A stretch of DNA of 64,000 bases from Streptomyces drozdowiczii (lineage in GTDB: Bacteria > Actinomycetota > Actinomycetes > Streptomycetales > Streptomycetaceae), in NCBI RefSeq assembly GCF_026167665.1, contig NZ_CP098740.1:7130001-7194000 (forward strand). The letters are read 5' to 3'. Of this stretch, positions 17,934 through 34,512 are shown in pieces. The notes under the pieces are model-generated. The model searched no databases and was not told the origin of the DNA. It saw only the letters and a program-made list of their open reading frames with translations. Each line of letters opens with the position of its first letter. Position 1 is the stretch's first letter. Both the position numbers and the translations under genes were made by a program.

Positions 17934-17952
17934 CACGGAACTCCTGCTGCTG

Positions 17953-17974: not shown

Positions 17975-18102
17975 AAGCAAGGACGGCTCGCACGCATCTC
18001 GGACGCTGCTAGGGCGGGCGCCCGGAAGGCCGATACATGGCGAATGACCCGTTTTCGCGCTTGAGAACGGGTCCAGGCCGCAGCCAGATCCGCCAGGGAA
18101 CC

Positions 18103-18120
18103 GGTTGCGGTCGGCTTGCG
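18103..18120 (+). promoter_or_regulatory. Cluster direct repeat GGTTGC-N7-TTGCG, probable SARP site with -10
   Basis: GGTTGCGGTCGGCTTGCG repeats TTGC with 11-base phasing, and a good -10 hexamer, TATACC, starts 10 bases downstream (18131). The site is 52-69 bases upstream of the decarboxylase start. It is the clearest promoter of this class in the window. Confidence 0.7.
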
Positions 18121-18171
18121 CTCCGCTCCGTATACCTGAGCCGTCCGCTGCCCCCCACCGAAAGGCCGAGC

Positions 18172-19596
18172 GTGGATCTTCGTTACTGGCTGCCGCGTGC
18201 CGTAGACGTGGCCGAACACTGGGGAGAGCGCTTCGGCCCGTACCGGGAGCATCCCTCGCACCTGGTCGGGGACGAGGAGTTCGCATCCGCGTTCGCCGCG
18301 TTCTCCAAGCGGCTGGACGACAACTATCCGTTCTTCCATCCGCGCTACGCGGGGCAGATGGTCAAGCCGCCCCATCCGGCGGCGGTCGTCGGGTACGTCA
18401 CGGCGATGCTGTTCAACCCGAACAACCACGCCGCCGAGGGCGGCCCGGCCACCACCGAGATGGAACGCGAGTGCGTGGACCTGCTCGCCGGCATGTTCGG
18501 CTTCCGGGGTTCGCACCTGGGCCATCTGACGACGAGCGGGACCATGGCGAACCTGGAGGCGCTGTACGTGGCGCGCCAGACGCATCCCGGACGCGGCATC
18601 GCGTACAGCGCCGAGTGCCACTACACGCACGCCCGCATGTGCGGGGTGCTCGGCATCGAGGGCCACCGGGTGCCCGCCGACGGCCTGGGCCGCATCGATC
18701 TGGACGCCCTGGAGAAGCTGCTCGCGGCCGGCCGGGTCGGCACGGTGGTGGTGACCACGGGGACGACGGGGCTGGGGGCGGTCGACCCGGTGCACGAGGT
18801 GGTGCCGCTGGCCCGGCGGTACGGCGTACGGGTCCATGTGGACGCCGCCTACGGCGGGTTCTACGCGCTCCTCGGGCGCTCGGACCGGCCCGAGGGCATC
18901 GACGTACGCCCGTGGCGGGCCATCGCGGACTGCGACTCGGTCGTCGTGGACCCGCACAAGCACGGCCTCCAGCCCTACGGGTGCGGGGCGGTGCTGTTCA
19001 ACGACGACGCCGCCCGCAACCACCTGGCGCACGACTCGCCGTACACCTACTTCACCGAGGCCGCACTGCACCTGGGCGAGATCAGCCTGGAGTGCTCGCG
19101 GGCCGGGGCGGCGGCCGCCGCGCTCTGGCTGACGCTGCAACTGCTGCCGCTGACCCGGGACGGCTTCGGCGAGGTCCTGGCCGGCAGCCGCCGCGCGGCC
19201 GTCGGATGGGCGGAGCGCATCGAGGCGTCCGAGGAGCTGGAGACGTACCAGGCACCGCAGCTGGACATCGTCAGCTACTTCCCCGCGACCCGGCCGCTGA
19301 CGCTGTCCGCCGTCGACGCCGCGTCCGGCCGGCTGCTCACGGACGGCATGCACGCGGAGCGGGACCCCGTGTTCCTGAGCGTGCTGCGGACCGACGCGGC
19401 GGACTTCGCCCGGCGCCGGCCCGACGTGGCGGCCGACGCCGACACGGCCCGGGTGATGCGCAGCGTCCTGATCAAACCCGAAGCCGAACTGCACCTCGAC
19501 CAGCTGCACACCCGGGTGGAGCAGCTGGCGGCGACCGGGCGCGTCCGACCGCCGCGCCCGGCACACCCCTCATCGAACGGGAGGAGAACTTCGTGA
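18172..19596 (+). CDS. PLP-dependent (group II) decarboxylase family protein
   Basis: A 474-residue fold-type-I PLP enzyme related to glutamate/aromatic amino acid decarboxylases. HLTTSGTMANLEAL (about 118-131) binds cofactor phosphate, HVDAAYGGF has the PLP-ring aspartate (Asp224) and VVDPHKHGLQPYGCG carries the Schiff-base lysine (Lys263). GTG 18172 is chosen because AAAGG lies 7 bases upstream and conservation starts there. It is the first gene of a three-gene coupled operon under a SARP-type promoter, so it probably prepares an amine or amino-acid-derived unit for the cluster. The amino acid substrate is unknown. Confidence 0.85.
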   Translation: MDLRYWLPRAVDVAEHWGERFGPYREHPSHLVGDEEFASAFAAFSKRLDDNYPFFHPRYAGQMVKPPHPAAVVGYVTAMLFNPNNHAAEGGPATTEMERECVDLLAGMFGFRGSHLGHLTTSGTMANLEALYVARQTHPGRGIAYSAECHYTHARMCGVLGIEGHRVPADGLGRIDLDALEKLLAAGRVGTVVVTTGTTGLGAVDPVHEVVPLARRYGVRVHVDAAYGGFYALLGRSDRPEGIDVRPWRAIADCDSVVVDPHKHGLQPYGCGAVLFNDDAARNHLAHDSPYTYFTEAALHLGEISLECSRAGAAAAALWLTLQLLPLTRDGFGEVLAGSRRAAVGWAERIEASEELETYQAPQLDIVSYFPATRPLTLSAVDAASGRLLTDGMHAERDPVFLSVLRTDAADFARRRPDVAADADTARVMRSVLIKPEAELHLDQLHTRVEQLAATGRVRPPRPAHPSSNGRRTS

Positions 19597-20234
19597 CCCA
19601 CCTGTCCACGTTCCCGCCGCCCTCGCCGACCGCACCCCGGCCGGTTCTGCGGCGCGCCCGACGGGCCGAAGCCGGCGCCCTCGCGGCGCTGCTGGCGGAC
19701 GCGTTCCACGACGACCCGCTCACCCGCTGGATCACCCCGGACCCGGAACGCAGGGCGCGGGTGCTGCCCGGTCTGTTCGGGGTGTTCCTCGACATGTCGT
19801 TCGCGTACGACGCGGTGACCTGCACCCCGGACCTGGACGCCGTGCTGCTGTGGACGCCGCCGGACGCCCAGGCCGAGCTGGAGGCGCGGGGCGAGGAGTT
19901 CGCCGGGCGCTTCGAGGACGTCCTCGGTGTCCGCGAGGCCGCCTCGCTGGCGCTGATCGCCGAGCTCCAGGCGTCCCGGCACCCGGTCGCTCCGCACTAC
20001 TACGCGTCGTTCGGCGCGGTGCGCGGCGGTGCGCGCGGCCGGGGGCTGCTCGGCGCGCTCGTCGCCGAGGTGCTGCGGGAGGCCGACGCGGCGGGCTGCG
20101 GGGCGTACGCGGAGGCCAGCTCGCCCGGCGGCGAGGCGTCGGCGCGCGGCCAGGGCTTCGTCCGGCTGGGCGAGGACATCGTGCTGCCGGACGGCGGGCC
20201 ACGCCTCCGGCCGATGTGGCGGGAGCCGCGATGA
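19593..20234 (+). CDS. GNAT-family N-acetyltransferase
   Basis: The 213-residue protein has a GNAT N-terminal motif (LRRARRAEAGALAALLADAFHDDPLTRW) and the acetyl-CoA loop VRGGARGRGLLGALVAEVLREAD, followed by AYAEASSPGGEASARGQGF. The GTG start overlaps the decarboxylase stop (GTGA), and AGGAG lies 7 bases upstream. Coupling to a decarboxylase suggests it may acylate the amine that enzyme makes; this is inference. Confidence 0.8.
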   Translation: MTHLSTFPPPSPTAPRPVLRRARRAEAGALAALLADAFHDDPLTRWITPDPERRARVLPGLFGVFLDMSFAYDAVTCTPDLDAVLLWTPPDAQAELEARGEEFAGRFEDVLGVREAASLALIAELQASRHPVAPHYYASFGAVRGGARGRGLLGALVAEVLREADAAGCGAYAEASSPGGEASARGQGFVRLGEDIVLPDGGPRLRPMWREPR

Positions 20235-20866
20235 GGGGCGACAGCCGGCTCCAGATCTACACGCCGGGTCAGGTGGACCGGGGCCTCGTCCCGGCCGGAC
20301 AGCTCGGGCCGCTGCGCGAGGTGCTGGAGTGGAGCCGGACCTTCCTGGTGTCGAGCCATCCCGAGCTGGGCCGAAGCGGTCCCGTCTGCCCGTACACCCA
20401 GCCGTCGCTGCGCGCCGGCCGGTTCCTGCTCGCCGTGCCGGCGCAGAGCACCCCGGCCGCGCTGCCGGGTGCCGTGGAGGCGCTGCGTACCTGGTACGAA
20501 CGGCTGGCGGCGGAGCTGGCGGAGGACGAGCGGGAACTCCTCACCGTACTGATGGTGCTTCCGGAGCTCGACCACGCGGACCCGGCGGACCTGGACCTGT
20601 TGCAGGCGGACGCGAAGGACGACTTCGTGGCCCAGGGGCTGATGATCGGCCAGTTCCATCCGCTGTGCGCCGAACCGGGGCTGTGGAACGAGGACTTCGC
20701 GCCGCTGCGCTCACCCGTGCCGCTGCTCGCGGTGCGCCGGCTGCTGGTGTTCGACCTGCCGTTCCTGGTCGGCGCCGACCGGCACATCGACCACTATCTG
20801 CGCCGGTTCGCCCCGGACATCCCGGCGCGGGTGCGCGACCAGCTGGTCAACCGCGTCGTGTCCTGA
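20231..20866 (+). CDS. Uncharacterised protein with PVCPYTQPSL motif (possibly DUF6875-like)
   Basis: A 211-residue soluble protein with a conserved-looking centre, GPVCPYTQPSLRAGRFLLAV (residues 50-69), and QFHPLCAEPGLWN. I believe similar proteins are grouped as DUF6875 in actinobacteria and often sit in biosynthetic clusters, but I am not certain. No catalytic motif is recognised; the Cys and His in CPY and FHPLC might bind a metal. It is the last gene of the operon, with an ATGA overlap to the GNAT gene. Confidence 0.55.
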   Translation: MRGDSRLQIYTPGQVDRGLVPAGQLGPLREVLEWSRTFLVSSHPELGRSGPVCPYTQPSLRAGRFLLAVPAQSTPAALPGAVEALRTWYERLAAELAEDERELLTVLMVLPELDHADPADLDLLQADAKDDFVAQGLMIGQFHPLCAEPGLWNEDFAPLRSPVPLLAVRRLLVFDLPFLVGADRHIDHYLRRFAPDIPARVRDQLVNRVVS

Positions 20867-20926: not shown

Positions 20927-21643
20927 TCACGACGGATGGAGGGCCGACCGCACGGTCTGCCGACTGCTCTCCAGCGTACGCAGCCACTCGCCGGGGTCGC
21001 CGCTGCGCAGCAGGGCGGTGCCGACGAGGAGGCCCTTGTAGCCGGCGTCCAGCAGCCGGGCCGCCGTCTGCGGGCTGTCGATGGCGCTGGCGCTCACCGG
21101 GCAGGGGGTGCCGCTCGCGATCAGGGCGGGCAGCAGCTCGAAGCTGCGGTCCAGGTCGCCCCGGTCGCGTTCCCGGGTCTTGATGTCCTTGTTGTTGACG
21201 GCGATGACGCACTCGTCGGCGTGCGGCACGGACGCGATCTCGGCCTCGGTGGTGGCCTCGACGAACGGGGTCAGGCCCGCACTGAGCGCCGCGATGGTGA
21301 GCCCGCGCAGCGCGGAGGCGGAGAGCAGTCCCGCGGTGAGCAGGACGGCCGACGCGCCCAGCTCCCGGGCGGTCTCCAGCTGGTCCTTGCGGGTGATGAA
21401 GTCCTTCTGGAGCAGCGGGAGTTCGGTCAGCCGGGCGACATCGCGGAGCAGTTCGCGGGTGCCGCCGAACCAGCGTCCCGTGACGACCGAGATGCAGGGT
21501 GCCCCGGCTTTCTCGTACGCGGTGACGATCTCTGCGGGGGTGTGTCCCGAGATGAGGTCGAAGCCGAACGCGTCGCGCCGCTTGACCTCCATCACCAGGG
21601 GCTGCGGGGCCGACAGCAGGGACTCGATGAAGGGAAGGCTCAT
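20927..21643 (-). CDS. trpC: Indole-3-glycerol-phosphate-synthase-like enzyme (TrpC family) with altered active site
   Basis: A 238-residue TIM barrel of the IGPS family. MEVKRRDAFGFDL supplies the Glu19/Lys21 pair, LLQKDFI the general-acid lysine (Lys80), PFVEATTEAEI the Glu129 and IAVNNKDIKTRERD the substrate Asn. Two features differ from biosynthetic TrpC: the SPS phosphate-side segment after EVKR is replaced by RDAFG, and the usual VSESGI reads VSASAI, so the catalytic Glu is Ala185. True TrpC decarboxylates and closes carboxyphenylamino-deoxyribulose phosphate; here a related ring closure on another ribosylated amine is likely. It is the last gene of the core operon, coupled to trpF. The symbol denotes family, not proven function. 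Confidence 0.85.
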   Translation of the reverse strand: MSLPFIESLLSAPQPLVMEVKRRDAFGFDLISGHTPAEIVTAYEKAGAPCISVVTGRWFGGTRELLRDVARLTELPLLQKDFITRKDQLETARELGASAVLLTAGLLSASALRGLTIAALSAGLTPFVEATTEAEIASVPHADECVIAVNNKDIKTRERDRGDLDRSFELLPALIASGTPCPVSASAIDSPQTAARLLDAGYKGLLVGTALLRSGDPGEWLRTLESSRQTVRSALHPS

Positions 21644-22395
21644 GGCTGCTCCGTAGGCCGTGTGGTCGGGGTGTCCGTGGCGGAAGGAGTGCGGGGGGTG
21701 GGGTGGCCCGGCCCGGCGTCCCAGGCGTGGGCCAGTGCGGCCACCTCGGGTGCGCCGAAGCGGCCGTCGCCGCCGCGGGCCGCGGTGTCGACGTCGATGC
21801 CGCGCAGCCGGGGGTGGCGCAGGACCCGTTCGTACGCGGACCGGTTGGTCCGGTCGAGTCCGCCGGCGAGCCAGAACGGCAGGGTGAACCGTTCGGCCAG
21901 GCGGAGGACGGTCTCCTCGTCCAGACGCTGCCCCGTGGAGCCGACGCGGCCGTCGGCGGTGGTGGCGTCGATGAGGAAGAGGTCGGTGCCGGCCCGCTCG
22001 TACGCCCCGATCAGGGGGCGTTCCGGGCAGGTGCCGTCCGCGACGTGCAGCACCTTGACGATGACGGCGTCGGGCAGTGCCGTGCGCAGGGCGCGGACGG
22101 TGGCGGGCGGCTGGTAGGCGTGGAGCTGGACGGTGCGGATGCCGGTGCGGCGCAGGACGCCGGCCACCGCGTCCGGGTCACCGAGGAAGGTGACCAGGAC
22201 GGGGTGCAGGGTGGCGGTGGCACGGACGGCCGCCGCGAGGGCGGCCACCTCGTGCTCGGGCAGGTCCGCGGGGCCGCCGGGGACGCCGTGCCAGAGGCCG
22301 ACGAGTCCGGCGCCGGCGCCGGCCAGCACCTCGATGTCGCGGGTGCTGGTGGCGCCGCAGACCTTGAGGGTGCGCGGTGGGGACAGGGTGGTCAT
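21640..22395 (-). CDS. trpF: Phosphoribosylanthranilate-isomerase-like enzyme (TrpF family)
   Basis: This 251-residue TIM barrel keeps the Amadori-isomerase signature: general-base Cys13 in LKVCGATSTRD, VQLHAY, general-acid Asp143 in LIDATTADGRVGSTG, and LAGGLDRTN. It would convert an N-phosphoribosyl amine into the 1-deoxyribulose (Amadori) product. The C-terminal 25 residues are Thr/Pro-rich and look like a tail. Streptomyces normally uses the dual-function PriA (HisA/TrpF) for tryptophan, so a separate TrpF inside a polyketide cluster suggests a dedicated secondary role. Both ends overlap neighbours by four bases. Confidence 0.85.
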   Translation of the reverse strand: MTTLSPPRTLKVCGATSTRDIEVLAGAGAGLVGLWHGVPGGPADLPEHEVAALAAAVRATATLHPVLVTFLGDPDAVAGVLRRTGIRTVQLHAYQPPATVRALRTALPDAVIVKVLHVADGTCPERPLIGAYERAGTDLFLIDATTADGRVGSTGQRLDEETVLRLAERFTLPFWLAGGLDRTNRSAYERVLRHPRLRGIDVDTAARGGDGRFGAPEVAALAHAWDAGPGHPTPRTPSATDTPTTRPTEQP

Positions 22396-23537
22396 CGGCC
22401 CAGGCCCAGCTTGGACGCGATGCGGTTGTACTGGATCTCGTTGCTGCCCGAGTAGATCGTGCCGCCCACGGCGTTGCGGACGTCGATCTCCAGTCCGTAC
22501 TCGCTCATGTAGCCGTGGCCGCCGAAGACCTGGACGGCGGTGAGCGAGCCGGCGAGGTTGGCTTCGCTGGTGATCAGCTTGGCGATGGCCAGGTCCTCGG
22601 TGACGTCCTCGCCCTCCTCAAGGCGTTCGGCGGTGTCGTAGAGCCACTTCCTGGCCGACTCCAGGCCGATCTTGGCGTCCACGATCTTGTTGGCGATGGA
22701 CTGGTAGGAGCCGATCGTCTTACCGAACGAGCGGCGGGTGCGGGCGTACTCGACGCAGCGGTCGAACCGGTGCTGCATCTCCCCCACGTTCACGATGAAC
22801 GAGAGGAGGATCTCCCGCTTCATCACGTAGTCGAGGACGATGAAGCCGCCGCCCACTCGGCCGAGGACCCGGTCGCGCGGGATGCGGCAGTCGTCGAAGT
22901 ACAGCTCGCTGAGCGGGGAGGTGCGCAGGCCCATCTTCTTGACGGGCCTGCCGACGGTCAGGCCCGGGGTGTTCCGGTCCACGAGGAACGCGGTCACGCC
23001 GAGGGCGCCGCCGTCGGGGTGGGTGCGGGCGTACACGACGAACACGTCGGCGACGGGGCCGTTGCTGACGAAGCACTTGCTTCCGTTCAGCACGAAGTCG
23101 TCGCCGTCGCGTTCCGCGCGCGTGGCCATGGCCATCGCGTCGCTCCCGGACTCCGACTCGGTGATCGCGTGGGCGCCGATCGCCTCGCCGGAGCTGATCC
23201 GGGGAAGGTACTCCGCCTGCTGCGCGGGCGTGCCGAAGCGCATGAGGGGGACGCCCGTGCTGGCGAGCGTGGTGGTGACGCAGAAGTTCAGACCCGCGTC
23301 ACGGCAGTGCTCGCCGAGCCCTTCCAGGACGTACATGGTGGTGAGGAGGGACTGGCCCAGGCCGCCGTGCTCCTCGGCGAAGGGCAGGGCGAGGATGCCG
23401 GCCCGGCGCACCAGTTTCCACTTCTCCCAGGAGAACTCCGCTCGTTCGTCCTGGGCGATGTGGTCGGCGCTGAGTGCCTCGCCCCACCGGGCCAGGCCGG
23501 CCCGGAGGTCGGCCTGGTCGGTGTTCCAGCGGATCAC
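22392..23537 (-). CDS. Acyl-CoA dehydrogenase-type flavoprotein lacking the usual C-terminal catalytic Glu
   Basis: A 381-residue protein of normal ACAD length with AHAITESESGSDAMAMATRAERDGDDFVLNG (FAD/substrate loop), VKKMGLRTSPLSELYFDD and the C-terminal VFGGHGYMSEYGLEIDVRN. In many ACADs the catalytic base is the Glu of YEGTNEIQ; here the segment reads IYSGSNEIQ, with Ser at that position. Either the base lies elsewhere, as in isovaleryl-CoA and long-chain types, or the chemistry is changed. Beside a discrete adenylation enzyme and carrier protein, it may desaturate a carrier-bound aminoacyl group, as prolyl-carrier oxidases (PltE, RedW) do. It is coupled to trpF; 35 bases separate it from the EctC-like gene. 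Confidence 0.85.
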   Translation of the reverse strand: MIRWNTDQADLRAGLARWGEALSADHIAQDERAEFSWEKWKLVRRAGILALPFAEEHGGLGQSLLTTMYVLEGLGEHCRDAGLNFCVTTTLASTGVPLMRFGTPAQQAEYLPRISSGEAIGAHAITESESGSDAMAMATRAERDGDDFVLNGSKCFVSNGPVADVFVVYARTHPDGGALGVTAFLVDRNTPGLTVGRPVKKMGLRTSPLSELYFDDCRIPRDRVLGRVGGGFIVLDYVMKREILLSFIVNVGEMQHRFDRCVEYARTRRSFGKTIGSYQSIANKIVDAKIGLESARKWLYDTAERLEEGEDVTEDLAIAKLITSEANLAGSLTAVQVFGGHGYMSEYGLEIDVRNAVGGTIYSGSNEIQYNRIASKLGLGR

Positions 23538-23572
23538 TGGGACCCCTTTCAGAGGTGCGGGTGCCGTGCGGA

Positions 23573-23947
23573 TCAGTAGGCGGAGGAGGTGTGCGCGTCG
23601 AGGCTGTGCACCTCGTCGCCCTGGAGCGCCGGGGTGAAGACGCAGACGAGTCTCAGGTCCTCGTGCGGGGAGGCGACGAGGTAGTGCGCGTCGTGCTGGT
23701 CGAGGGAGTACAGCCGGCCCGGCGTGATGGGGTGCACGGTGCCGTCGAGCTCGACCACCTCGCCGGAGCCCTCGATGCAGTAGCAGGACTCCAGGTGGTT
23801 GCGGTACTCCAGGCGGGACTTGGTGCCGGCTCGCACCGTGGTGTCGGTGATCGAGTAGCCGACGCCGTCGGACTCGGTGAGGAAACGACGGCTGAGCCCG
23901 TTGCCCCAGTCGACGCTCTTGACGGTCTCCAGGTCACGGATGATCAT
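23573..23947 (-). CDS. ectC: Ectoine-synthase-like cupin (EctC family), orphan
   Basis: A 124-residue cupin matching EctC almost end to end: MIIRDLETV, NHLESCYCIEGSGEV, GRLYSLDQHDAHYL and DLRLVCVFTPALQGDEVHSLD. The three metal ligands known for EctC are present (Glu53, Tyr80, His88). EctC closes N-gamma-acetyl-diaminobutyrate into the cyclic amidine ectoine, but no ectA, ectB or ectD is nearby. In this operon it most likely forms a cyclic amidine on another substrate. ATG 23947 is used (AAGGAG 6 bases upstream), two bases after the trpA-like stop. Confidence 0.9.
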   Translation of the reverse strand: MIIRDLETVKSVDWGNGLSRRFLTESDGVGYSITDTTVRAGTKSRLEYRNHLESCYCIEGSGEVVELDGTVHPITPGRLYSLDQHDAHYLVASPHEDLRLVCVFTPALQGDEVHSLDAHTSSAY

Positions 23948-23949
23948 GG

Positions 23950-24786
23950 TCAACTCCTTGTTCGGATAGGGGTATTGGCCGTACTTGTCTCGTCCGGTCC
24001 GGGCTGGAGCGACCGGACGAAGTCGCGCAGTGCCGTGGTGACGGAACCCTCCTCGTCGAGGGCCTGCTCCACGCGCGCCACGCCCGCGGAACCGACGATC
24101 GCTGCGTCGGCCCCGCTCGCGGCGACCGCCGCGACGTGGCTGCGCGTACTGACCCCGAAGCCGACGGCGATCGGGGAGTTCGTGTGGGCCCGCAGCCCGG
24201 CGACGACCGGGGCGAGCGCGGCGTGCCCGGCGGGCGGCGCGGTGCCGCTGCGGCCGTAGTGCGCCACCAGATAGACGTACGCGGAGGACTCGCGGGCGGC
24301 CCGGGCCCGGGTCTCCTCCGGGCTGGTCGGGTAGCAGGTGGTGACGACGGCGGTGCCGGCCGCCTCGGTGGCCTCGCGGTAGGCGTCCCGCAGCCGGGGC
24401 GGCAGGCCGTGCACCAGGAGGCCGTCGGCGCCGGACGCGGTGATGTCCTTGACGGCAGCGCCCAGGTCCCGGTGCTTGAGGGAGTGGCTCCAGTCGGCGA
24501 GCAGCGCGATCCGCAGCCGCCGCAGCCCCGGCCGGACGCGGGCGACGAAGCCGAGGACGTCGTCCAGGCCGGTGCCCCGGTCCAGGGCGCGCCGGGCGGA
24601 GCGGCGTACGACCGGCCCGTCGGTGAAGGAGTCCGGGAAGGGCACCGCCAGTTCGAGGCAGTCGACGCCCTCCTCGTCGAGCATGTGGACGACGTCGGCC
24701 AGCTCGTCCAGCGGCGGGTCGCCCGCGTTGAGGAACAGCGTGAGCCCGGGTCGGCCGGGTCCGCTCCCGGTGAAGAAGTCAGCCAT
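23950..24786 (-). CDS. trpA: Tryptophan-synthase-alpha-like lyase (TrpA family) without TrpB
   Basis: This is a 278-residue TIM barrel. LELAVPFPDSFTDGP aligns with the LELGVPFSDPxADGP signature and keeps both catalytic acids with correct spacing (Glu45 and Asp56; Glu49 and Asp60 in E. coli). VGFGVSTRSHV and GADAAIVGSAGV form the phosphate site. TrpA performs the retro-aldol release of glyceraldehyde 3-phosphate from indole-glycerol phosphate. No trpB is present, so, as in stand-alone indole-glycerol-phosphate lyases (plant BX1), it may release a free heterocycle. It overlaps trpD by 8 bases. Confidence 0.88.
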   Translation of the reverse strand: MADFFTGSGPGRPGLTLFLNAGDPPLDELADVVHMLDEEGVDCLELAVPFPDSFTDGPVVRRSARRALDRGTGLDDVLGFVARVRPGLRRLRIALLADWSHSLKHRDLGAAVKDITASGADGLLVHGLPPRLRDAYREATEAAGTAVVTTCYPTSPEETRARAARESSAYVYLVAHYGRSGTAPPAGHAALAPVVAGLRAHTNSPIAVGFGVSTRSHVAAVAASGADAAIVGSAGVARVEQALDEEGSVTTALRDFVRSLQPGPDETSTANTPIRTRS

Positions 24787-25819
24787 GGCGGACCGCCCCC
24801 GCCGTCGCCGCGGTCCGCCGGGAGCGCAGCCGCTCGACCAGGGCCGCGGCGGCCCCGCTGGTGACGGCGTCGTCCGTGGCGTCGAGCGCGTCGCGCCAGG
24901 TGGTGTGGTGGCCGGCCGCGAGGGCGAGGGCGGCGGCGTTGAGGCGGACGGTGTGGGTGGCCGCCGGATGGGCGCGCCCGGCGAGCACGGCCAGGAAGTG
25001 GTCGACGGCCGCGTCCTTGGGCGCGGGGGCCAGCGCCTCGAAGCCGCCGTCCGCCGGGATCAGCGCGCCGGGCTCCAGGACCTGGTCCTCGCCCCGCGCG
25101 ATGTGCACGGTGTTGCGGGCGAAGCCGAGGAGTTCGTCGGCGCCCCGGTCGTTGCTGGTCAGCCACACCGTACGGCCGGTGACCGTGGCGGCGAGGCGGC
25201 GCAGGTCGTCCAGGGGCATGGTGTGCGAGACCCCGGTGACCTGGGCGGTGACCGGCAGGTCGGCGAGGAGGGGGCCGAGCGCGTTGAGGAAGCGCCCGAA
25301 CGGCTTCATGCTCACCGGTGCGATCAGGCGGGCGAGCCGGGCGAGTTCGACCGGGTAGACGAACGGCCCGGTGAAGGCGATCCCGTCCCGCTCCAGGTGC
25401 TCCTCGGTCTGCTCGTACGAGGAGGTGAGGCGTACCCCGAGGCGTTCGAGGAGGTCCACGGAGCCGAGGCTTGAGGTGTAGGCCCGGGAGCCGGACTTGA
25501 CGACGCGCACACCGGCGGCGGCCGCGACGAAGGCCGCCGCGGTGGAGACATTGAAGGTGGCGGGCCCGCCTCCGGTGCCCACGACGTTGACCGTCGCGGG
25601 CCAGGCGGGCCCGGGGCGCGCGGGGCGCCGTTCCAGGAGGGTGCCGTGCAGGGCGGCCAGCGTCGGGGGGTCGGGGAGCCGGGTGGTCAGCGAGGCCAGC
25701 AGGGCGACGGCCTGCTCCCGGGGGAGCGTGCCGTCGCCGAGCCGGTCCCACAGAGACCGCCAGGTCTCGTGCTCGGCCACCGTGCGCCGCGCCAGCAGGC
25801 CGGTGAGCGCGTCGTGCAT
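24779..25819 (-). CDS. trpD: Anthranilate-phosphoribosyltransferase-like enzyme (TrpD family), altered substrate side
   Basis: A 346-residue class-III-type phosphoribosyltransferase. VVGTGGGPATFNVSTAAAFVAAAAG is the PRPP-binding GTGGD...NIST region and SSLGSVDLLERLG follows as usual. Differences from biosynthetic TrpD are visible: GTGGD reads GTGGG, the anthranilate-side KHGNR reads KSGSR, and the metal-binding GxDE segment reads GEDQ. It probably transfers phosphoribose from PRPP to an amine other than anthranilate. It is the first committed step of a TrpD-TrpF-TrpC-TrpA-like series within one operon. Confidence 0.85.
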   Translation of the reverse strand: MHDALTGLLARRTVAEHETWRSLWDRLGDGTLPREQAVALLASLTTRLPDPPTLAALHGTLLERRPARPGPAWPATVNVVGTGGGPATFNVSTAAAFVAAAAGVRVVKSGSRAYTSSLGSVDLLERLGVRLTSSYEQTEEHLERDGIAFTGPFVYPVELARLARLIAPVSMKPFGRFLNALGPLLADLPVTAQVTGVSHTMPLDDLRRLAATVTGRTVWLTSNDRGADELLGFARNTVHIARGEDQVLEPGALIPADGGFEALAPAPKDAAVDHFLAVLAGRAHPAATHTVRLNAAALALAAGHHTTWRDALDATDDAVTSGAAAALVERLRSRRTAATAGAVRHG

Positions 25820-25821
25820 GG

Positions 25822-26079
25822 CTAGCCGTTCACCTCCTGGCGGGCGCCGGCGACGAAGGTGTCGATGGCGGTGACGCTGCGGAAGTTGTTGGGGTCGAGG
25901 TCCGTGTCGTCCACGGCGAGGCCGAAGCGGTCCTCCACCCAGGCGATCAGCTTGAGCAGGCCGAGCGAGTCGATGGCTCCGCTCGACAGGAGGTCCTGGT
26001 CGTCGGCGAGTTCGTCCTGCGTGAGGTCCGGCAGGAACTCCTCGATCAGGAACTGCTTGATGGTGGCCGTGTTGCTCAT
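25822..26079 (-). CDS. Discrete acyl/peptidyl carrier protein
   Basis: An 85-residue carrier protein with the phosphopantetheine attachment site GAIDSLGLLKLI (Ser38). The C-terminal half (NNFRSVTAIDTFV) resembles the stand-alone PCPs of pyrrole pathways (PltL, RedO) more than type II PKS ACPs. The start overlaps the end of the adenylation gene by four bases, indicating that this ligase loads this carrier. Activation would need the Sfp-type transferase at 52657-53487. Confidence 0.9.
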   Translation of the reverse strand: MSNTATIKQFLIEEFLPDLTQDELADDQDLLSSGAIDSLGLLKLIAWVEDRFGLAVDDTDLDPNNFRSVTAIDTFVAGARQEVNG

Positions 26080-27605
26080 GACGTCCTTCCTTCTACGGTG
26101 GTCAGCCGGCGGGAGTGGTCCGGTGCCGGGGACGGTCCGCGCAGCCGGTCGAGCGCGGTGCGGTCGACCTTTCCGGTGGCGGTCTTGGGCAGCGGTTCAT
26201 CGGTGATCCGCAGAACACCGGGAACGGCGGCCCGTGGCAGGGCGCGGGCGCAGTGTTCCTTCAGGAGCAGGCTGTTGAGCCCGCTGCCGGGTGCGCGCCG
26301 CACCCCGGCGACGAGCCGTTTGCCGGTGAGCGGGTCGGGCTGCGCGGCGACCCCGGCCTCCAGGACGGCGGGGTGGCTGAGCAGCACCTGCTCGATCTCG
26401 GCGGTGTTGACGGCGACGCCGCGCACCTTGACCTGGAAGTCGCTGCGTCCGGTCAGATACAGCAGCCCGTCGGCGTCGCGCCGTACGAGGTCGCCGGTGC
26501 GGAACCAGGTGCCGTCGTCGTGGCCGAGCGGGTGGCCGGTGAACCGGTCCCGGCTGCGGGCCGGGTCGAGGTAGCCGGCGGTCTGGAAGGGCGTCCTGAC
26601 GTGCAGCTCGCCGGCGCCGGGCCCGGTGACCTCCTGGCCGTCGGCGTCCAGGACGAGGACGGAGACCCCGGGGAGCGGGGTGCCGATGGGCAGCGGGCCG
26701 AAGACGGTGGCCGTGGTGTCGACGTCGTACGTGAAGCTGTCGTTGGTCTCCGTGCAGCCGTAGATGTTGGTGAGGCGGGCGGCGGGCAGGACGTCGCGCA
26801 GCTCGGCCAGGGTGCGTTCGGGCAGGACGTCGCCGGTGAAGGCGGCCCGGCGCACCGACGGCAGCAGCACACCGGCCCGGCGGGCGGCGTCCAGCACGAG
26901 CCGGTAGAACATCGGCACGGCCTGGACGATCTCGACGTCGTGCCGGAGCAGCAGGTCGAGCAGATGGCGTCCGTCGACGGCCTTGTCCGGGTCCACGAGG
27001 ACGACCCGGCCGCCGTGCGCGAGGGTCGTCCACACGTCGAGGAAGCACAGGTCGAAGTTGAGCGGCGCGTAGTTGAGGACGGTGGTGCCCGGCGCGACGG
27101 CGAAGGCCGGCCCGGCCCAGGCCACGAACCGGTCCACGGCCCCCTCGTCCAGCGGGACGGTCTTGGGCAGCCCGGTGGAGCCGGACGTGGTGAGCATGAA
27201 GGCGGTACGGGGAGGCACCGGGTACGCCGCCGACCGGGCCGGGACCGGCACACTCCTCGGTTCACCGCCCGGGGCCAGTACGTGCCGGCAGCCGGCCTGC
27301 GCGAACAGCTGGGTCAGCAGTTGCTCGCCGAGGTGCGGGGAGGGCAGCAGGAACGGGCGGTGGGCGAGCAGGCAGCCGAGGACGAGCGCGAGGGCGTCGG
27401 GCGACTTCTCGGCGAGGATGCCGACGGGTTCGCCGGCCGGCAGCCCGAGCAGGGCCAGGCGCTCGCGTTCGCGGCCGGCGCTCTCGTACAGCTCGCGGTA
27501 GCTGGTCTCCTCGCCGTGCCAGACGAGGGCGGGCGCGTCGGGGCGCTCGCGGACCTGGGTGAGGAAGCCGGGGAGCAGTCCGGCGGCGCCGCCCCGGCCG
27601 GTCAT
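26076..27605 (-). CDS. Discrete NRPS-type adenylation enzyme (amino acid:carrier ligase)
   Basis: A 509-residue adenylation enzyme with core motifs in order: TTSGSTGLPKTVPL (A3), NFDLCFLDVW (A4), IYGCTETNDSF (A5), TGDLVRRDADGLLYLTGRSDFQVKVRGVAVNTAEIE (A7-A8) and PKTATGKVDR (A10 lysine). The Asp of the A4 FD pair, which binds an alpha-amino group, is present, favouring an amino acid such as proline over an aryl acid. With the adjacent carrier and ACAD it resembles the PltF/PltL/PltE pyrrole-loading trio. Substrate unproven. Confidence 0.88.
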   Translation of the reverse strand: MTGRGGAAGLLPGFLTQVRERPDAPALVWHGEETSYRELYESAGRERERLALLGLPAGEPVGILAEKSPDALALVLGCLLAHRPFLLPSPHLGEQLLTQLFAQAGCRHVLAPGGEPRSVPVPARSAAYPVPPRTAFMLTTSGSTGLPKTVPLDEGAVDRFVAWAGPAFAVAPGTTVLNYAPLNFDLCFLDVWTTLAHGGRVVLVDPDKAVDGRHLLDLLLRHDVEIVQAVPMFYRLVLDAARRAGVLLPSVRRAAFTGDVLPERTLAELRDVLPAARLTNIYGCTETNDSFTYDVDTTATVFGPLPIGTPLPGVSVLVLDADGQEVTGPGAGELHVRTPFQTAGYLDPARSRDRFTGHPLGHDDGTWFRTGDLVRRDADGLLYLTGRSDFQVKVRGVAVNTAEIEQVLLSHPAVLEAGVAAQPDPLTGKRLVAGVRRAPGSGLNSLLLKEHCARALPRAAVPGVLRITDEPLPKTATGKVDRTALDRLRGPSPAPDHSRRLTTVEGRTS

Positions 27606-28435
27606 GGCCGCCGTCCCGCCAGCCGGGCCCAGCCGCTCTTCACGGCGATGCCCGACGGGGTGCGGCAGGTGAAGCGGACCAGGGTGCGGTCGGCGTCCGG
27701 GGCCAGTTCGATCCGGAGCGGCACGTCCGGGACCACCGGGGCGGAGAACCGCCCGCTGACGGCGAGGACGCGGGTGGCGTCGCCGTCCGCGTACCGGTCG
27801 GCGATCTCCTCGACGGCGAGGGCGAGCACGCTCATCCCGTGCGCGATGACGCTGGGGAAGCCGGCGTCCTTGGCGGCCCGGTCGTCCAGGTGGATCGGGT
27901 TGAGGTCGCCGGAGGCGTGCGCGTAGCCGCGGATCCAGGCGGGGGTGAGCCGGTGCTCGGCGACGGCCGGCTCACCGGCTCCGCCGGAGGGTGCGGGCGC
28001 GGCCGGTGACGGGATCCCGCCGAAGGGCTCGATGGCGGCGGCGCCCATCAGCAGGGCGCTGGTGAGGAGTTCGGCGCGCGGGGTGCCGTCGGCTGCGGTG
28101 AGGCGGGCCCGGACGGCGACGCGGGTGCCCCTCGGTTCGCGGCGGGCGCCGACCACGTCGAGGGCGACGGTGATCTGCTCGCCGGGCAGCAGCGGCTGCT
28201 CGATCAGGATGTCCTGGCCGAGGTGGACGACGGAGACGGGCTCGGGCTCGGCCGCCGCCAGGTCGCGTACGGTCGCGTCGGCGAGGGTGTGCGCGAGGAC
28301 GAAGGCGTGCACCGGGGAGGCGCCGGGTGCCTCGGCCGCGGGCAGGTCCGCGCGGACGGCGGCCCGGAAGGCGGCCACCTCGTCGGCGGTGAGGGTGCGG
28401 ATCGCGGTGCGGGGCCGGGCGGTGGTGGTCGTCAT
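27602..28435 (-). CDS. MaoC-like double-hotdog dehydratase
   Basis: A 277-residue protein with two hotdog halves; the C-terminal one carries the R-hydratase signature YAHASGDLNPIHLDDRAAKDAGFPSVIAHGM (about 170-200), with the catalytic Asp/His pair. The N-terminal half is the degenerate partner, as in eukaryotic-type and FAS1-type hydratases. It would dehydrate a 3-hydroxyacyl thioester or hydrate an enoyl one. It lies between the KS and adenylation genes with 4-base overlaps on both sides, so it belongs to the same pathway. Confidence 0.85.
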   Translation of the reverse strand: MTTTTARPRTAIRTLTADEVAAFRAAVRADLPAAEAPGASPVHAFVLAHTLADATVRDLAAAEPEPVSVVHLGQDILIEQPLLPGEQITVALDVVGARREPRGTRVAVRARLTAADGTPRAELLTSALLMGAAAIEPFGGIPSPAAPAPSGGAGEPAVAEHRLTPAWIRGYAHASGDLNPIHLDDRAAKDAGFPSVIAHGMSVLALAVEEIADRYADGDATRVLAVSGRFSAPVVPDVPLRIELAPDADRTLVRFTCRTPSGIAVKSGWARLAGRRP

Positions 28436-29682
28436 ACCGGCGCCACCACCATGCTCGCGTTGTGGCCGCCGAAGCCGAAGGAGTTCGACAGCGCGGGCCC
28501 CAGGGCGACGGGCCGTGGACTGGTGTGCACCACGTCGATCTCCATTCCTGGCTCCAGGTGTTCGTGGTTGGCGGTGGGCGGCACCTCTCGGGCGCGCATG
28601 GCCTGGACGGCGGCGATGATCTCGACGGCGCCGGCCGCTCCGATGAGGTGGCCGATGACGCCCTTGGAGGCGGTGACCGGCGGCCCGTCGGAGCCGAAGA
28701 CCTTGGCGAGGGCCGTGGCCTCGGCGCGGTCGTTGTGCGGGGTCGAGGTGCCGTGCGCGTTGATGTGCGTGATCTCGTCGGGGGCGAGCCCGGCGGCGGT
28801 GAGCGCGCCGGTCATCGCGGAGACCGCGCCTGCCCCGTCGGCCAGCGGCATCGACAGGTGGTAGGCGTCCGAGGTGGCCGCGTACCCGGCGATCCGGGCG
28901 TAGGTGCGGGCGCCCCGGGCCAGCGCGTCGTCCAGGCGTTCCAGGACGACGAAGCCGGCCCCCTCCCCCATGACGAACCCGTCGCGGTCCCGGTCGAACG
29001 GGCGGGAGGCGCGCGCCGGGTCCTCGTTGCGCCCGGAGACCGCGTTCAGGTTGCCGAAGGCGGCGAGGGTGACCGGGGTCAGGGTGGACTCGCAGCCGCC
29101 CGCGATCGCCACGTCGGCCCGGCCCGACTCCAGGAGCGCGGTGGCGTGCCCGATGGCGTCGACGCCGCTGGCGCAGGTGGTCGCGATGGTGGTCGCGGGA
29201 CCGGTCCAGCCCAGGCGCATGGCGATCTGGGCGGCCGCCGCGTTCGGCATGGTGAGCAGCGGCATCAGCGGGTTGACCCGGTGCGGGCCCACCTCGCTGT
29301 AGTGCGCGGACTCGCGGTCACTGGTGGCGCGGCCGCCCACCGCGTTGCCGACGACGATCGCGGTGCGCCCGGGCTCGGGCACCGGGGCGCCTGCGTCGCG
29401 GTGCGCGGCGAGCGCGGCCGTGGTGCCGTACAGCGCGAAGGGGTCCATGCGCCGGGCGTCCTTGGCGGACACGAGGGCGTCGGGGCCCTGGGTGTCGAGT
29501 CCGCTGACCCGGCAGCCGATCCGGACCCGGTGGCGGGAGAGGTCCAGGTGGTCGAGCGGGGCTGCGGTGGAACGGCCGGCGCGGAGCGCGGCCCACAGGG
29601 CCTCGGGGGTGCACCCCGCCGGGGTGACCACACCGATCCCGGTGATCACCACCGGGGTGCGGTGGGAGGCTGCGGCTGTCAT
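28432..29682 (-). CDS. FabF-like beta-ketoacyl-ACP synthase (KAS II type)
   Basis: A 416-residue elongating ketosynthase with an intact triad: nucleophile Cys170 in ATTCASGVDAIGHA, His in INAHGTSTPHND and His in ASKGVIGHLIGAAGAVE. It is closer to FabF/RedX-type enzymes than to the KS-alpha of the type II PKS at the right end, and no CLF partner is adjacent. Beside an oxoamine synthase and a carrier protein it may condense the carrier-bound starter with malonyl-ACP, as RedX does in prodiginine biosynthesis. The 47-base gap to the upstream gene suggests the same transcript. Confidence 0.9.
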   Translation of the reverse strand: MTAAASHRTPVVITGIGVVTPAGCTPEALWAALRAGRSTAAPLDHLDLSRHRVRIGCRVSGLDTQGPDALVSAKDARRMDPFALYGTTAALAAHRDAGAPVPEPGRTAIVVGNAVGGRATSDRESAHYSEVGPHRVNPLMPLLTMPNAAAAQIAMRLGWTGPATTIATTCASGVDAIGHATALLESGRADVAIAGGCESTLTPVTLAAFGNLNAVSGRNEDPARASRPFDRDRDGFVMGEGAGFVVLERLDDALARGARTYARIAGYAATSDAYHLSMPLADGAGAVSAMTGALTAAGLAPDEITHINAHGTSTPHNDRAEATALAKVFGSDGPPVTASKGVIGHLIGAAGAVEIIAAVQAMRAREVPPTANHEHLEPGMEIDVVHTSPRPVALGPALSNSFGFGGHNASMVVAPV

Positions 29683-29728
29683 CTTCGGTCTCGTCTCCGT
29701 CCGGTGTCCCGGGGCGTGGACCGGCCGG

Positions 29729-30946
29729 TCAGGCCGGGATGATGCCGCACTCGCGGGCGGACTTGATGAAGGCGTCGGCGGCGAAGTCGATGTCCTCGGG
29801 CGTGTGCCGCGCGGTCACCGCGATCCGCAGCCTGGCCAGGTCGTTGGGGACGGCCGGGGTGACCACGGGGATGCCGATGACGCCGTTGCGGCGGCAGGTG
29901 GTGGCCAGGTCGTACGCCTTCTCGTCGGAGCCGGCGATCAGCGGCAGCACCGCGGTCACGCTGTCCTGCGTACGCAGTCCCTGGGCGTTGACCAGGGCGC
30001 GCAGGCGGGCGGACTCGCGCTGGATGTGGGTGACCCGCTCCGGTTCGCGTTGCAGGATGCGCAGGCTCTCCAGGGCGGCCGCGGCCTGGGCCGGGGCGAG
30101 GGCGGCGGAGAAGAGGAACGGCCGGGCGGCGTAGCGCAGGTGGCCGATCAGCTCGGCGGGTCCGGTGACCCAGCCGCCCATGGACGGGATGCCCTTGGAC
30201 AGGGTGCCGAGCTTGATGTCGGCCTTCACCCGGTGGTCGAAGTGCTCCTCGATGCCGCGCCCGGTGGCGCCGATGACGCCGAGCGCGTGGGCCTCGTCCA
30301 CCATGAGCAGCGCGTTGTGCTCGTCGCACACCTTGCGCAGCTCGGGCAGCGGGGCGATGTCGCCGTCCATGGAGTAGACGCTGTCGACGATGACGAGCCG
30401 CACCCCGTCGGGCGAGGCGGCGGCCAGGCGGCGGTCGAGGTGGTCGACGTCGTTGTGCCGGAAGCGGGTGACGGTGGCGCCGGAGAGCCGGCAGCCGTCC
30501 ACGATGGAGGCGTGGTCGTACTTGTCGATGAAGACGGTGTCGCCGGCGCCGACGAGACCGCCCACGGTGCCCACGTTGGCCGCGTAGCCCGAGCTGAAGA
30601 CCATGGACGCCTCGCGGTCCGCGAAGCTCGCGACCTCGGCCTCCAGCTCCTCGTGCAGCGGGATCGTCCCGGCCAGGGCGCGCACGCCGTGGTTGCCGCT
30701 GCCGTAGAGGTCGAGCGCGGCCTTGGCGGCGGCGACGACGCGTTCGTCGCCGCCCAGACCCAGATAGCTGTAGCCGGACATCATCAGCAGCCGTTGTCCG
30801 TCGAGATCGGCGTAGGCGCTGTCCCGCTCGACCGTGTAGGAGACGAAACTGTTGCGGCGCTCCGGCTCGGACTCCAGTGCCGCCACACGCCTGTTCGTGA
30901 CGGCCAGCTTCGGCGCCAGCCGTTCCCAACCTCCGGTTGCGTTCAC
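29729..30946 (-). CDS. Alpha-oxoamine synthase (8-amino-7-oxononanoate synthase/KBL family)
   Basis: A 405-residue fold-type-I PLP enzyme. GSGNHGVRALAGTIPLHEEL, VDEAHALGVIGATGRG (cofactor Asp) and KLGTLSKGIPSMGG (Schiff-base Lys251) are all present. The family condenses an amino acid with an acyl thioester with loss of CO2, giving an alpha-aminoketone. It could act with the KS and carrier of the same operon, as the oxoamine synthase domain does in prodiginine pathways. It is the first gene of the 11-gene core operon, with a SARP-type repeat 73-90 bases upstream. Confidence 0.92.
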   Translation of the reverse strand: MNATGGWERLAPKLAVTNRRVAALESEPERRNSFVSYTVERDSAYADLDGQRLLMMSGYSYLGLGGDERVVAAAKAALDLYGSGNHGVRALAGTIPLHEELEAEVASFADREASMVFSSGYAANVGTVGGLVGAGDTVFIDKYDHASIVDGCRLSGATVTRFRHNDVDHLDRRLAAASPDGVRLVIVDSVYSMDGDIAPLPELRKVCDEHNALLMVDEAHALGVIGATGRGIEEHFDHRVKADIKLGTLSKGIPSMGGWVTGPAELIGHLRYAARPFLFSAALAPAQAAAALESLRILQREPERVTHIQRESARLRALVNAQGLRTQDSVTAVLPLIAGSDEKAYDLATTCRRNGVIGIPVVTPAVPNDLARLRIAVTARHTPEDIDFAADAFIKSARECGIIPA

Positions 30947-31203: not shown

Positions 31204-31324
31204 ACGCCCCTGCGAGGGTCACGTCGACATCACGGGGAATGGCGAGAACTGAACGGCGCAACGCGAAAGCAAGGGCGCCGTGTTCCCCGCTCGGTTCCTG
31301 ATCCGCCGCAGGGGGAGTGTCGAC

Positions 31325-32182
31325 GTGTTGATCCGGCTCGTAGGACTTGTCAGCATCGAGCACGAGGCGGAACCGCCCCGGCACCTGTCGAGCGCGCAGG
31401 CTCAGATCGCCTTCGCCCGACTCGTCCTGGAGCGCTCCGCAGGCACCAGCCGCGACCAGCTCGCGGACACGCTGTGGCCGCAGGGGCTGCCCGACACCTG
31501 GGCGTCCGCGCTGCGCAGTGTCGTCAGCCGGGTGCGGTCCTTCGTCACCAGCGCACACCAGAAGCCGGGCGAGACGCCGCTGGTCGCCCAGAGCGGGCGT
31601 TACCTGCTGCATCTGCCGGGCGAGGCGCTGACCGATGTGGAGATGGCCGAGGCGTCGGTCTCCGAGGCCCGGCAGGCGTGCCGGGAGGGCGCGCACGCGG
31701 TGGCCCTGCAACTGGCCTCCGGCGCGGTCGCCAATCTGCGCGGCGCCTTCCTGCCCGCCCACGAGGGCGAGTGGGTGAACACCACCCGCGAGCGCATCGA
31801 GGCGGTACGGCTGAGCGCCCTGGAGCTGTCCAGCGCCTCGGCCGCCGCCCTCGGCAACAGCCACCACGCCCTGCGGTACGCCGACGAGGCGGTGCGCAGG
31901 GCGCCGTTCCGGGAGAGCGCGCACCGCTGCCGGATGACGGCGCACGCCGCCGCCGGCAACCGGGCGGACGCGCTGCGCGTCTACCAGCAGCTGCGCGAGC
32001 TCCTGTCGGACGAGCTCGGCATCGAGCCCGCCCCGTCCACCCAGACGCTCTATCTGGGCCTGCTCCGCGAGCCCGACCCGGCCCGCGAGGCGCCCCGTCC
32101 GATGGCCCCGTACGGCGGCCCGGCCGGCATCGACCCGCTCCTGATGAGCGCGTACGAGCCCCTGCTCCCGCCGGCCGCGTAG
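31325..32182 (+). CDS. SARP-family pathway activator
   Basis: A 285-residue SARP with an OmpR-type winged helix (about 15-95; LSSAQAQIAFARLVLERSAGTSRDQLADTLWPQGLP...) and a bacterial transcriptional activation domain (about 105-250; ending ALRVYQQLRELLSDELGIEPAPSTQTL). There is no NB-ARC extension, as in ActII-ORF4 and RedD. Such proteins bind 11-base-phased direct repeats at -35 and recruit RNA polymerase. GTG 31325 is preferred for its RBS; GTG 31280 is an alternative. It is the only pathway-specific regulator in the window's cluster part and probably drives the operons with TTGC repeats. Confidence 0.88.
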   Translation: MLIRLVGLVSIEHEAEPPRHLSSAQAQIAFARLVLERSAGTSRDQLADTLWPQGLPDTWASALRSVVSRVRSFVTSAHQKPGETPLVAQSGRYLLHLPGEALTDVEMAEASVSEARQACREGAHAVALQLASGAVANLRGAFLPAHEGEWVNTTRERIEAVRLSALELSSASAAALGNSHHALRYADEAVRRAPFRESAHRCRMTAHAAAGNRADALRVYQQLRELLSDELGIEPAPSTQTLYLGLLREPDPAREAPRPMAPYGGPAGIDPLLMSAYEPLLPPAA

Positions 32183-34055: not shown

Positions 34056-34065
34056 GCGCGCCCGC

Positions 34066-34320: not shown

Positions 34321-34380
34321 GGGGTGAGGTCCTTCCTCCGCAGGGCTTGGCCTTTTCGAAACGCATGGAACCCGTACGCA

Positions 34381-34398: not shown

Positions 34399-34414
34399 GC
34401 CGGCGCCCCCGTCG

Positions 34415-34432: not shown

Positions 34433-34512
34433 ATGCGGGGGTTTTCTCGTCTCGCGATGACATCGCAGGCACCACGCCATGAGCATGAGCCGGACGGGAG
34501 TTGAGGACGAAG

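Follow-up and report, generated by a model that had tools for sequence, protein, structure and literature searches.

What might be made by an operon that places four enzymes of the tryptophan type beside an ectoine synthase and a discrete adenylation enzyme? The question is raised by a 64,000-nucleotide stretch of Streptomyces drozdowiczii DNA (NZ_CP098740.1, positions 7,130,001 to 7,194,000; hereafter the window, whose own numbering is used for its features), which lies at 7.130-7.194 Mb, close to one end of a single-contig genome of 7.39 Mb. Eleven open reading frames (ORFs) at 20927-30946 on the minus strand encode an alpha-oxoamine synthase (AOS), a ketosynthase (KS), a MaoC-like protein, an adenylation enzyme (A), a peptidyl carrier protein (PCP) and relatives of TrpD, TrpA, EctC, acyl-CoA dehydrogenase (ACAD), TrpF and TrpC. 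These names are backed by Pfam or NCBIfam, the KS being seen only with NCBIfam and the PCP only with Pfam. As a preliminary description of this DNA had it, the genes are coupled: at seven of the ten junctions, neighbouring genes share 4 or 8 bases, and the remaining gaps measure 46, 35 and 2 bases. Judging from its enzyme families, we consider it fairly probable that the cassette from A to TrpC builds a carrier-bound acyl unit of the pyrrolo[2,3-b]pyrrole type, a bicyclic amidine, from glutamine, and that KS, MaoC and AOS extend this unit.

The eight genes from A to TrpC are found complete and in the same order in M. okii TP-A0468 (locus L064), with identities to the window proteins of 53% (A), 54% (PCP), 52% (TrpD), 60% (TrpA), 67% (EctC), 62% (ACAD), 52% (TrpF) and 58% (TrpC). 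This strain is the kosinostatin producer (PMC8698034), and its locus also has a ketosynthase and nucleoside diphosphate (NDP)-sugar genes in the neighbourhood. In terms of homology and gene order, the window appears to hold the same collinear cassette as the kosinostatin producer, in keeping with the kosinostatin-like logic that the preliminary description had surmised. That description had also listed EctC, together with the KS and the oxoamine synthase, as additions to this logic; the latter two are additions indeed, but EctC is not, since the cluster of kosinostatin itself has both EctC, at the same place, and ACAD. S. albidoflavus no longer makes kosinostatin once its TrpF gene, ksnC3, is disrupted (PMC13099267), which ties the module genetically to this compound. 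The same source describes the nonribosomal peptide synthetase (NRPS) module of kosinostatin as more widespread than the whole cluster, so that the spread of the module is not wholly new. Besides, the region of a second kosinostatin-type cluster was typed as 'T2PKS, ectoine, NRPS, T1PKS, other', and the loading of nicotinate has been attributed to kstB and the joining of phosphoribosyl pyrophosphate (PRPP) to kstC (PMC7918784). Among the matches listed in the open-licence PMC literature, none dealt with this 11-gene set or with the role of EctC in kosinostatin. Three M. okii genes of sugar type (nucleotidyltransferase, sugar dehydratase and glycosyltransferase-like) had no match in 7130001-7259999 at E 1e-5; matches to them of 33-36% lie at about 7100319, 7113296 and 7115790, 14-31 kb left of the window.

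The spread of the cassette was judged from TrpF and EctC searches of protein collections and from a scan of genome contigs with 30 aligned TrpF proteins. The TrpF-anchored loci are the best 80 of 82 encoded relatives; gene calls in them are rough (based on GC content at third codon positions), family counts such as that of UbiD are lower bounds, and homologues of window genes were counted at identities of at least 40% over half of the query. All eight core genes occur in 64/80 loci and the order A-PCP-TrpD-TrpA-EctC-ACAD-TrpF-TrpC in 62/80, a conservation far beyond chance; EctC is present in 72. In ten of the 16 incomplete loci, a contig end is reached or nearly reached (L011, L013, L015, L024, L031, L034, L036, L053, L069 and L079). 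In L036, the contig carries EctC after TrpA, in the genome of L051 PCP-TrpD-EctC is located away from the TrpF locus, and L017 is a partial second copy of the cassette. In Streptoalloteichus (L080, L081), TrpF stands beside a transglutaminase-like gene; the fetched DNA held no further core gene, and the genomes had no cassette-type EctC. The closest relatives of the window in the scan are unclassified Streptomyces (TrpF identity 93-96%), and a cassette-type TrpF occurs in 15 of 295 genomes of this genus, the window's own included (E 1e-25). Three of these 15 (G129, G198 and G271) carry two equal-scoring TrpF copies near opposite contig ends, which suggests terminal inverted repeats. Of note, a metagenome-assembled genome labelled Rhodospira (L036/L100) has a rearranged cassette with UbiD, KS-like and amine-oxidase genes.

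What the cassette may start from is indicated by conserved residues. Alignments took in only matches covering >80% of the query and, with the window's own row counted, comprise 70 A, 71 TrpD, 71 TrpA, 73 EctC, 76 ACAD, 76 TrpC and 80 TrpF sequences. Pocket positions of the A enzyme follow the GrsA scheme, to which its sequence was aligned, FD being matched to LgrA; this scheme, and the alpha-amine-binding role of the first pocket Asp, we assume to apply here. The pocket reads D, L/V, L/F, Q, variable, T/S, variable, D, S across the alignment, and its D, Q, D and S are kept in 70/70 sequences, the first of them aligned with the Asp of LgrA. It is predicted to be an amino-acid pocket, near-invariant across cassette variants; an enzyme for aryl acids such as nicotinate would have no Asp at the alpha-amine position. 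EctC passes the NCBIfam cut-off for ectoine synthase (143 vs 128 bits), retains counterparts of R25, T40, Y52 and E57, and has E55, Y82 and H90 in 73/73 sequences, the counterparts of the iron ligands E57, Y84 and H92 of bona fide EctC (PMC6344544). The ACAD, with Glu242 in 76/76, scores best against the NCBIfam models RedW and PigA, both below cut-off (357 vs 650 and 347 vs 500 bits); its top solved match, 6cxt, is titled butyryl-CoA dehydrogenase, and matches 2-4 are dehydrogenases of prolyl groups on acyl or peptidyl carrier proteins. Among the Trp-like enzymes, the highly divergent TrpF (Pfam score 35.8 bits) keeps Cys13 and Asp143 in 80/80 and TrpA keeps Glu45 and Asp56 in 71/71, all of which we take to be catalytic positions. 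TrpC has E19, K21, K80 and E129 in 76/76; the counterparts of E51 and of the essential K53, K110 and E159 are present in 76/76, and that of N180 in 73/76. The GTGG, N-x-S-T and DE motifs of TrpD are largely retained.

An A pocket that points to an amino acid, an EctC that points to the conversion of a side-chain amide into an amidine, and an ACAD that points to a carrier-bound five-membered ring being oxidised together suggest the following route. The A enzyme would load an alpha-amino acid, most likely glutamine, onto the PCP; EctC would join the side-chain amide to the alpha-amine, giving a cyclic amidine; and the RedW-type ACAD would aromatise the latter into the substitute for anthranilate, a 5-aminopyrrole-2-carboxyl thioester. 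TrpD would then add phosphoribose to the amine, TrpF would form the ketose, TrpC would close the second ring with the loss of water only, and TrpA would release glyceraldehyde 3-phosphate, leaving pyrrolo[2,3-b]pyrrole-2-carboxyl-S-PCP (acyl C7H5N2O, calculated), both nitrogens of which we infer to come from glutamine. The succession of N-phosphoribosylation, Amadori shift, ring closure and glyceraldehyde 3-phosphate loss given in the preliminary description is plausible, whereas amidine formation by EctC, its last step, would come first. In the window, elongation of the thioester by KS, MaoC and AOS might follow, with an amino acid that undergoes decarboxylation as the coupling partner; in kosinostatin, the pyrrolopyrrole unit would meet a type II polyketide. 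For kosinostatin we assume the formula C33H32N2O10, which fits an ion of m/z 617.213. Such an ion has been reported (PMC13099267), and EctC is known to convert glutamine to the cyclic amidine 5-amino-3,4-dihydro-2H-pyrrole-2-carboxylate (ADPC) in a weak side reaction (PMC5924519). As for ring closure, R182 of indole-3-glycerol-phosphate synthase (IGPS), taken as the counterpart of Arg196 in P. aeruginosa, is replaced by Lys in 73/76 TrpC sequences. In some chains, Arg196 contacts the carboxylate of the substrate; a substrate that lacks this group is still cyclised by IGPS, at a low rate (PMC7681013). The carbon next to the amine of an aminopyrrole would be nucleophilic and bear no carboxylate, which would fit the altered TrpC.

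On the other hand, a number of observations speak against this glutamine route. EctC lacks the substrate-contacting Trp21, which is Gly in 73/73 sequences, and has Thr at the Asn38 site in 72/73; only the former change is telling, because the genome's own canonical EctC already has His at the Asn38 site. Moreover, the equilibrium between glutamine and ADPC favours glutamine (PMC5924519). With Ala at the Glu210 site of TrpC in 75/76 sequences and Asp for Ser56 in 67/76, the reaction may differ from the one proposed; in M. tuberculosis IGPS, Glu219Ala abolishes activity (PMC10591298). The KHGN motif of TrpD reads K-T/S-G-S/A, its His being replaced by Thr or Ser in 71/71, and the HP that follows is YP in 70/71. 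Here, only the His change is telling, as the Asn is already Ser in the genome's own canonical TrpD. KHGN has been named an anthranilate-binding motif, yet HGN is assigned to PRPP binding in the same source, which also names an essential anthranilate-binding Arg (PMC5537072); a counterpart of Arg164 could not be placed, an Arg sitting one position earlier. As to gene content, the locus of Actinokineospora auranticolor (L062) has the other seven genes, with no cassette-type EctC in its genome, and L073 gave no TrpA match. The extension step is weak, since the operon has only one carrier and no ketoreductase to serve MaoC. Within the clade of KS/MaoC/AOS-bearing loci described below, Actinokineospora spheciospongiae (L028) has a SARP and MaoC beside the cassette and neither KS nor AOS there, an absence that is local, as no genome-wide search was made. 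A neighbouring type II polyketide synthase (PKS) would offer an alternative partner for the pyrrolopyrrole unit. Finally, starting from glutamine contradicts later papers, which state the precursors of kosinostatin as nicotinic acid and ribose (PMC5321127, PMC7918784).

The neighbouring PKS, which the preliminary description did not mention, brings up another reading, possible though rather unlikely in our view, in which the whole region is a single kosinostatin-like hybrid cluster that joins the pyrrolopyrrole to an aromatic polyketide from PKS genes at about 52.7-75 kb, with no octose. Type II PKS genes do lie next to the module. Within 52657-63880 they encode a phosphopantetheinyl transferase, an ACAD-like protein, an aromatase/cyclase, a ketoreductase, an aromatic hydroxylase, an AMP-ligase, a metallo-beta-lactamase (MBL)-fold protein, an acyl carrier protein and a chain-length factor; the KS-alpha straddles the right end of the window, a thioesterase and SARPs lie beyond, and PKS genes reach to about 75 kb (7194000-7205000 examined). 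KS-alpha is 69-76% and the chain-length factor 61-67% identical to those of the M. okii and S. spiroverticillatus clusters, the ketoreductase 72% to that of M. okii, two SARPs 70-79% and the phosphopantetheinyl transferase, MBL-fold protein, thioesterase and ACAD-like protein 54-61% to their S. spiroverticillatus counterparts. G313 shows the adjacency with an identical gene order, and in G312 the two lie on one contig, about 62 kb apart; incomplete clusters holding two of kosinostatin's three modules have been described (PMC13099267). What tells against a single hybrid cluster is the distribution of chain-length factors in 19 genomes (17 of the KS/MaoC type and two of the kosinostatin type; cut-off E 1e-60): matches were found in 17, whereas the KS/MaoC-type genomes G314 and G316 had none, and in G305 (Kibdelosporangium) both matches lie >1 Mb from the cassette, to which an AOS/FMO/KASIII set is still joined. 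From these three genomes it follows that this cassette type does not need a PKS, and an obligate partnership of the two was rejected. Either the PKS works with the cassette in this lineage alone, or it is a neighbour that functions by itself.

Less likely still appears a start from nicotinic acid, as assumed in the preliminary description, whereby nicotinyl-PCP would be converted to a pyrrole before the Trp-like enzymes add ribose-derived carbons. The kosinostatin pyrrolopyrrole unit, we assume, contains two nitrogens, while nicotinate has one. Nicotinic acid and ribose are stated as the sources of kosinostatin (PMC5321127, PMC8400222, PMC7918784), the window holds the same cassette, and deletion of kstB7, to which deformylation of the nicotinate-derived ring was assigned, lowered production in the original producer (PMC7918784). 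KstB7, however, is missing from the second kosinostatin-type cluster (PMC7918784), the aryl-acid enzyme assumed to take nicotinate has a code starting PLPA (PMC8400222), and the published scheme, as far as visible, leaves EctC without a role. The invariant Asp of the A pocket, presumed to bind an alpha-amine, and the Q/D/S set that goes with it fit nicotinate poorly.

Proline might instead be loaded and oxidised to pyrrole-2-carboxyl-PCP as in prodiginines, the second nitrogen coming from elsewhere. The proximity of the ACAD to RedW/PigA and AnaB would agree with this, as would a prolyl-carrier ligase among the solved relatives of the A enzyme; but proline would offer no amine to TrpD and no role to EctC, and the invariant Q and D of the pocket are unlike proline codes, which makes this origin quite improbable. 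That the operon is a spare supply of tryptophan or ectoine, as the family names by themselves might suggest, was rejected as having next to no chance, in agreement with the preliminary description as regards tryptophan: canonical trpC, trpB and trpA with a chorismate-binding (trpE-like) gene lie at 5.269-5.275 Mb of the same genome, trpD at 5.155 Mb and an ectoine synthase, flanked by aminotransferase and PhyH genes, at 5.458 Mb, whereas neither trpE nor trpB is among the operon's 11 genes by ORF and family scan, its ectC has trpA and ACAD rather than ectA or ectB as neighbours, and the TrpD KHGN and several IGPS residues are altered.

Returning to the glutamine-derived pyrrolopyrrole, its extension by KS, MaoC and AOS would be a trait of one branch of the cassette. 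Seven proteins were concatenated for a tree (72 tips including the window, loci with at least 5/7 proteins, no outgroup), in which the window falls into a 42-tip clade (support 1.0), and M. okii and S. spiroverticillatus into one of nine tips (0.993). KS and MaoC were found in the fetched DNA of 35 of the 41 other clade members, 30 of these having AOS as well, and five further members are cut off by contig ends. AOS occurs in 31/80 loci overall, L017 alone matching outside the clade. In all five KS/MaoC-type genomes that have no local AOS, a copy of 66-67% identity lies 18-21 kb from the cassette KS, and we rejected the idea that AOS is dispensable at these loci. No AOS match above 41% was found in the two kosinostatin-type genomes and the one Lentzea genome searched; without a close counterpart in the former, the product of the window would be a new compound. 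The AOS sub-cluster of the five genomes includes one more KS as well as counterparts of the window's flavoprotein monooxygenase (FMO), FAD-oxidase, cyclase, hydrolase and S-adenosylhomocysteine hydrolase (SahH), together with a multicopper oxidase homologue at 40-42% and, in four of them, KASIII, the fifth stretch ending before it.

Other subtypes lie outside the AOS clade. UbiD occurs in 8/80 loci, UbiX in 4/80 and a TrpB2-like enzyme in 3/80 (two Lentzea, one Actinocrispum), which is what one would expect of a cassette that makes a heteroaromatic carboxylate and an indole-like ring. The TrpB2-like enzyme of L044 (8638-10011) scores 699 bits against a cut-off of 366, and in Lentzea its gene sits between the transglutaminase-like gene and TrpF. 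In L044, L048 and L066 it is found inside the cassette with UbiX, and in the latter two also with UbiD; these loci possibly represent a tryptophan-analogue pathway. UbiD is carried by the L062 cassette, too. Further subtypes have an NRPS, as seen in L047, and a glutamate-dehydrogenase-family gene. More tentatively, and with somewhat less than even confidence, we propose a parallel indole-type pathway, in which an aminopyrrole made by EctC and ACAD and re-tooled TrpD, TrpF, TrpC and TrpA enzymes would give pyrrolo[2,3-b]pyrrole, a non-benzenoid isostere of indole, with three or more destinations: polyketides of type II (kosinostatin), alkaloids made with KS, MaoC and oxoamine synthase (window) and a tryptophan analogue involving UbiD/UbiX and the TrpB2-like enzyme (Lentzea, Actinocrispum). 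If true, this would overturn the nicotinate origin of the kosinostatin amidine.

The operon itself seems to be the core of a larger conserved cluster of about 15.1-43.7 kb (Table 1), a span drawn from the sub-cluster homologues in the five KS/MaoC genomes with a distant AOS. In the fetched stretches of these Kibdelosporangium-type genomes, no CMAS-type methyltransferase was found. Besides, a methyl-cycle set on the minus strand at 42223-50292 comprises SahH, a B12-dependent methionine synthase and an S-adenosylmethionine (SAM) synthetase, with MetK present in 4/80 loci.

Table 1. Operon, flanking genes and neighbouring polyketide synthase cluster in the window.
Feature	Positions	Strand	Remark
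DUF1772/anthrone-oxygenase-like protein	15104-15598	+	in 18/80 loci
DUF1772/anthrone-oxygenase-like protein	15659-16285	-	in 16/80 loci
Multicopper oxidase	16461-17936	-	in 16/80 loci
PLP-dependent decarboxylase	18037-19596	+	in 17/80 loci
DUF6875 protein	19850-20866	+	in 18/80 loci; true start probably further downstream
TrpC-like synthase	20927-21643	-	E19, K21, K80, E129; Ala at Glu210 site
TrpF-like isomerase	21640-22395	-	Cys13 and Asp143
ACAD-type dehydrogenase, prolyl-PCP dehydrogenase group (RedW/PigA/AnaB-like)	22392-23537	-	Glu242
EctC-like cupin	23573-23953	-	iron triad E55/Y82/H90
TrpA-like lyase	23950-24786	-	Glu45 and Asp56
TrpD-like phosphoribosyltransferase	24779-25819	-	GTGG present; KHGN His replaced by Thr/Ser
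PCP	25822-26079	-	Ser in DSLG
Discrete A enzyme	26076-27605	-	pocket D-L-L-Q-x-T-x-D-S
MaoC/HadAB-like hydratase-dehydratase	27602-28435	-	Pfam/NCBIfam
FabF-like KS	28432-29682	-	motifs TTCASG, NAHGTST, GHLIGAAG
AOS	29729-30946	-	best solved relatives are serine palmitoyltransferases
SARP/BTAD regulator, divergent from operon	31280-32182	+	in 33/80 loci
Protein without Pfam match	32321-32944	+	homologue in 3/80 loci and in extended cluster
KASIII (FabH-like) homologue	33069-34520	-	true start probably further downstream
CMAS-type methyltransferase	34501-35391	+	in 3/80 loci
FMO-like flavoprotein monooxygenase	35401-36957	+	homologues in Kibdelosporangium-type clusters
FAD-linked oxidoreductase (cytokinin-dehydrogenase-like)	36977-38470	+	homologues in Kibdelosporangium-type clusters
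SRPBCC cyclase-like protein	38499-39029	+	homologues in Kibdelosporangium-type clusters
Alpha/beta hydrolase	39026-39874	+	homologues in Kibdelosporangium-type clusters
Hemerythrin-like protein	40461-41162	-	
NmrA-like protein	41247-42056	-	
SahH	42223-43674	-	recurs in five Kibdelosporangium-type clusters
Type II PKS cluster, left part	52657-63880	-	related to kosinostatin PKS module; continues past right end of window

In summary, the module is found across many actinobacterial genera, in clusters for which no product was located here. Its parts are ordinary and their assembly is unusual. Our proposal assigns a role to every gene of the kosinostatin nitrogen module, offers a function that can be tested for one group of orphan ectoine synthases, and renders the published precursor origin directly testable. 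If right, it would describe a new route to bicyclic amidines and an indole isostere, of use for genome mining and for tryptophan analogues.

Several known systems come close to the window's operon. Its EctC belongs to the ectoine synthase family and keeps the iron triad, while differing from the enzyme of ectoine biosynthesis in having no ectAB alongside and Gly and Thr at the Trp21 and Asn38 sites. The tryptophan pathway supplies the same four families, TrpD, TrpF, TrpC and TrpA, with catalytic residues mostly retained; the window, by contrast, has no TrpE or TrpB, its KHGN motif and carboxylate-contacting Arg are changed, and its substrate would be carrier-bound. The branch of prodiginine biosynthesis that leads to 4-methoxy-2,2'-bipyrrole-5-carbaldehyde comprises the RedM, RedO, RedW, RedX and RedN functions. 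With this branch the window shares a discrete A enzyme, a PCP, a RedW-type dehydrogenase, a KS and an oxoamine synthase (the RedW, PigA and PigJ models match below cut-off, and the ACAD does not qualify as a RedW equivalog), but it adds the PRPP-dependent Trp-like enzymes and EctC, and its AOS stands alone. With the kosinostatin/quinocycline module (kstB/kstC in M. okii, ksn in S. albidoflavus) it has the eight core genes, their order, EctC and ACAD in common, to which the window adds KS, MaoC, AOS and the redox and methyl-cycle genes found at 15-44 kb.

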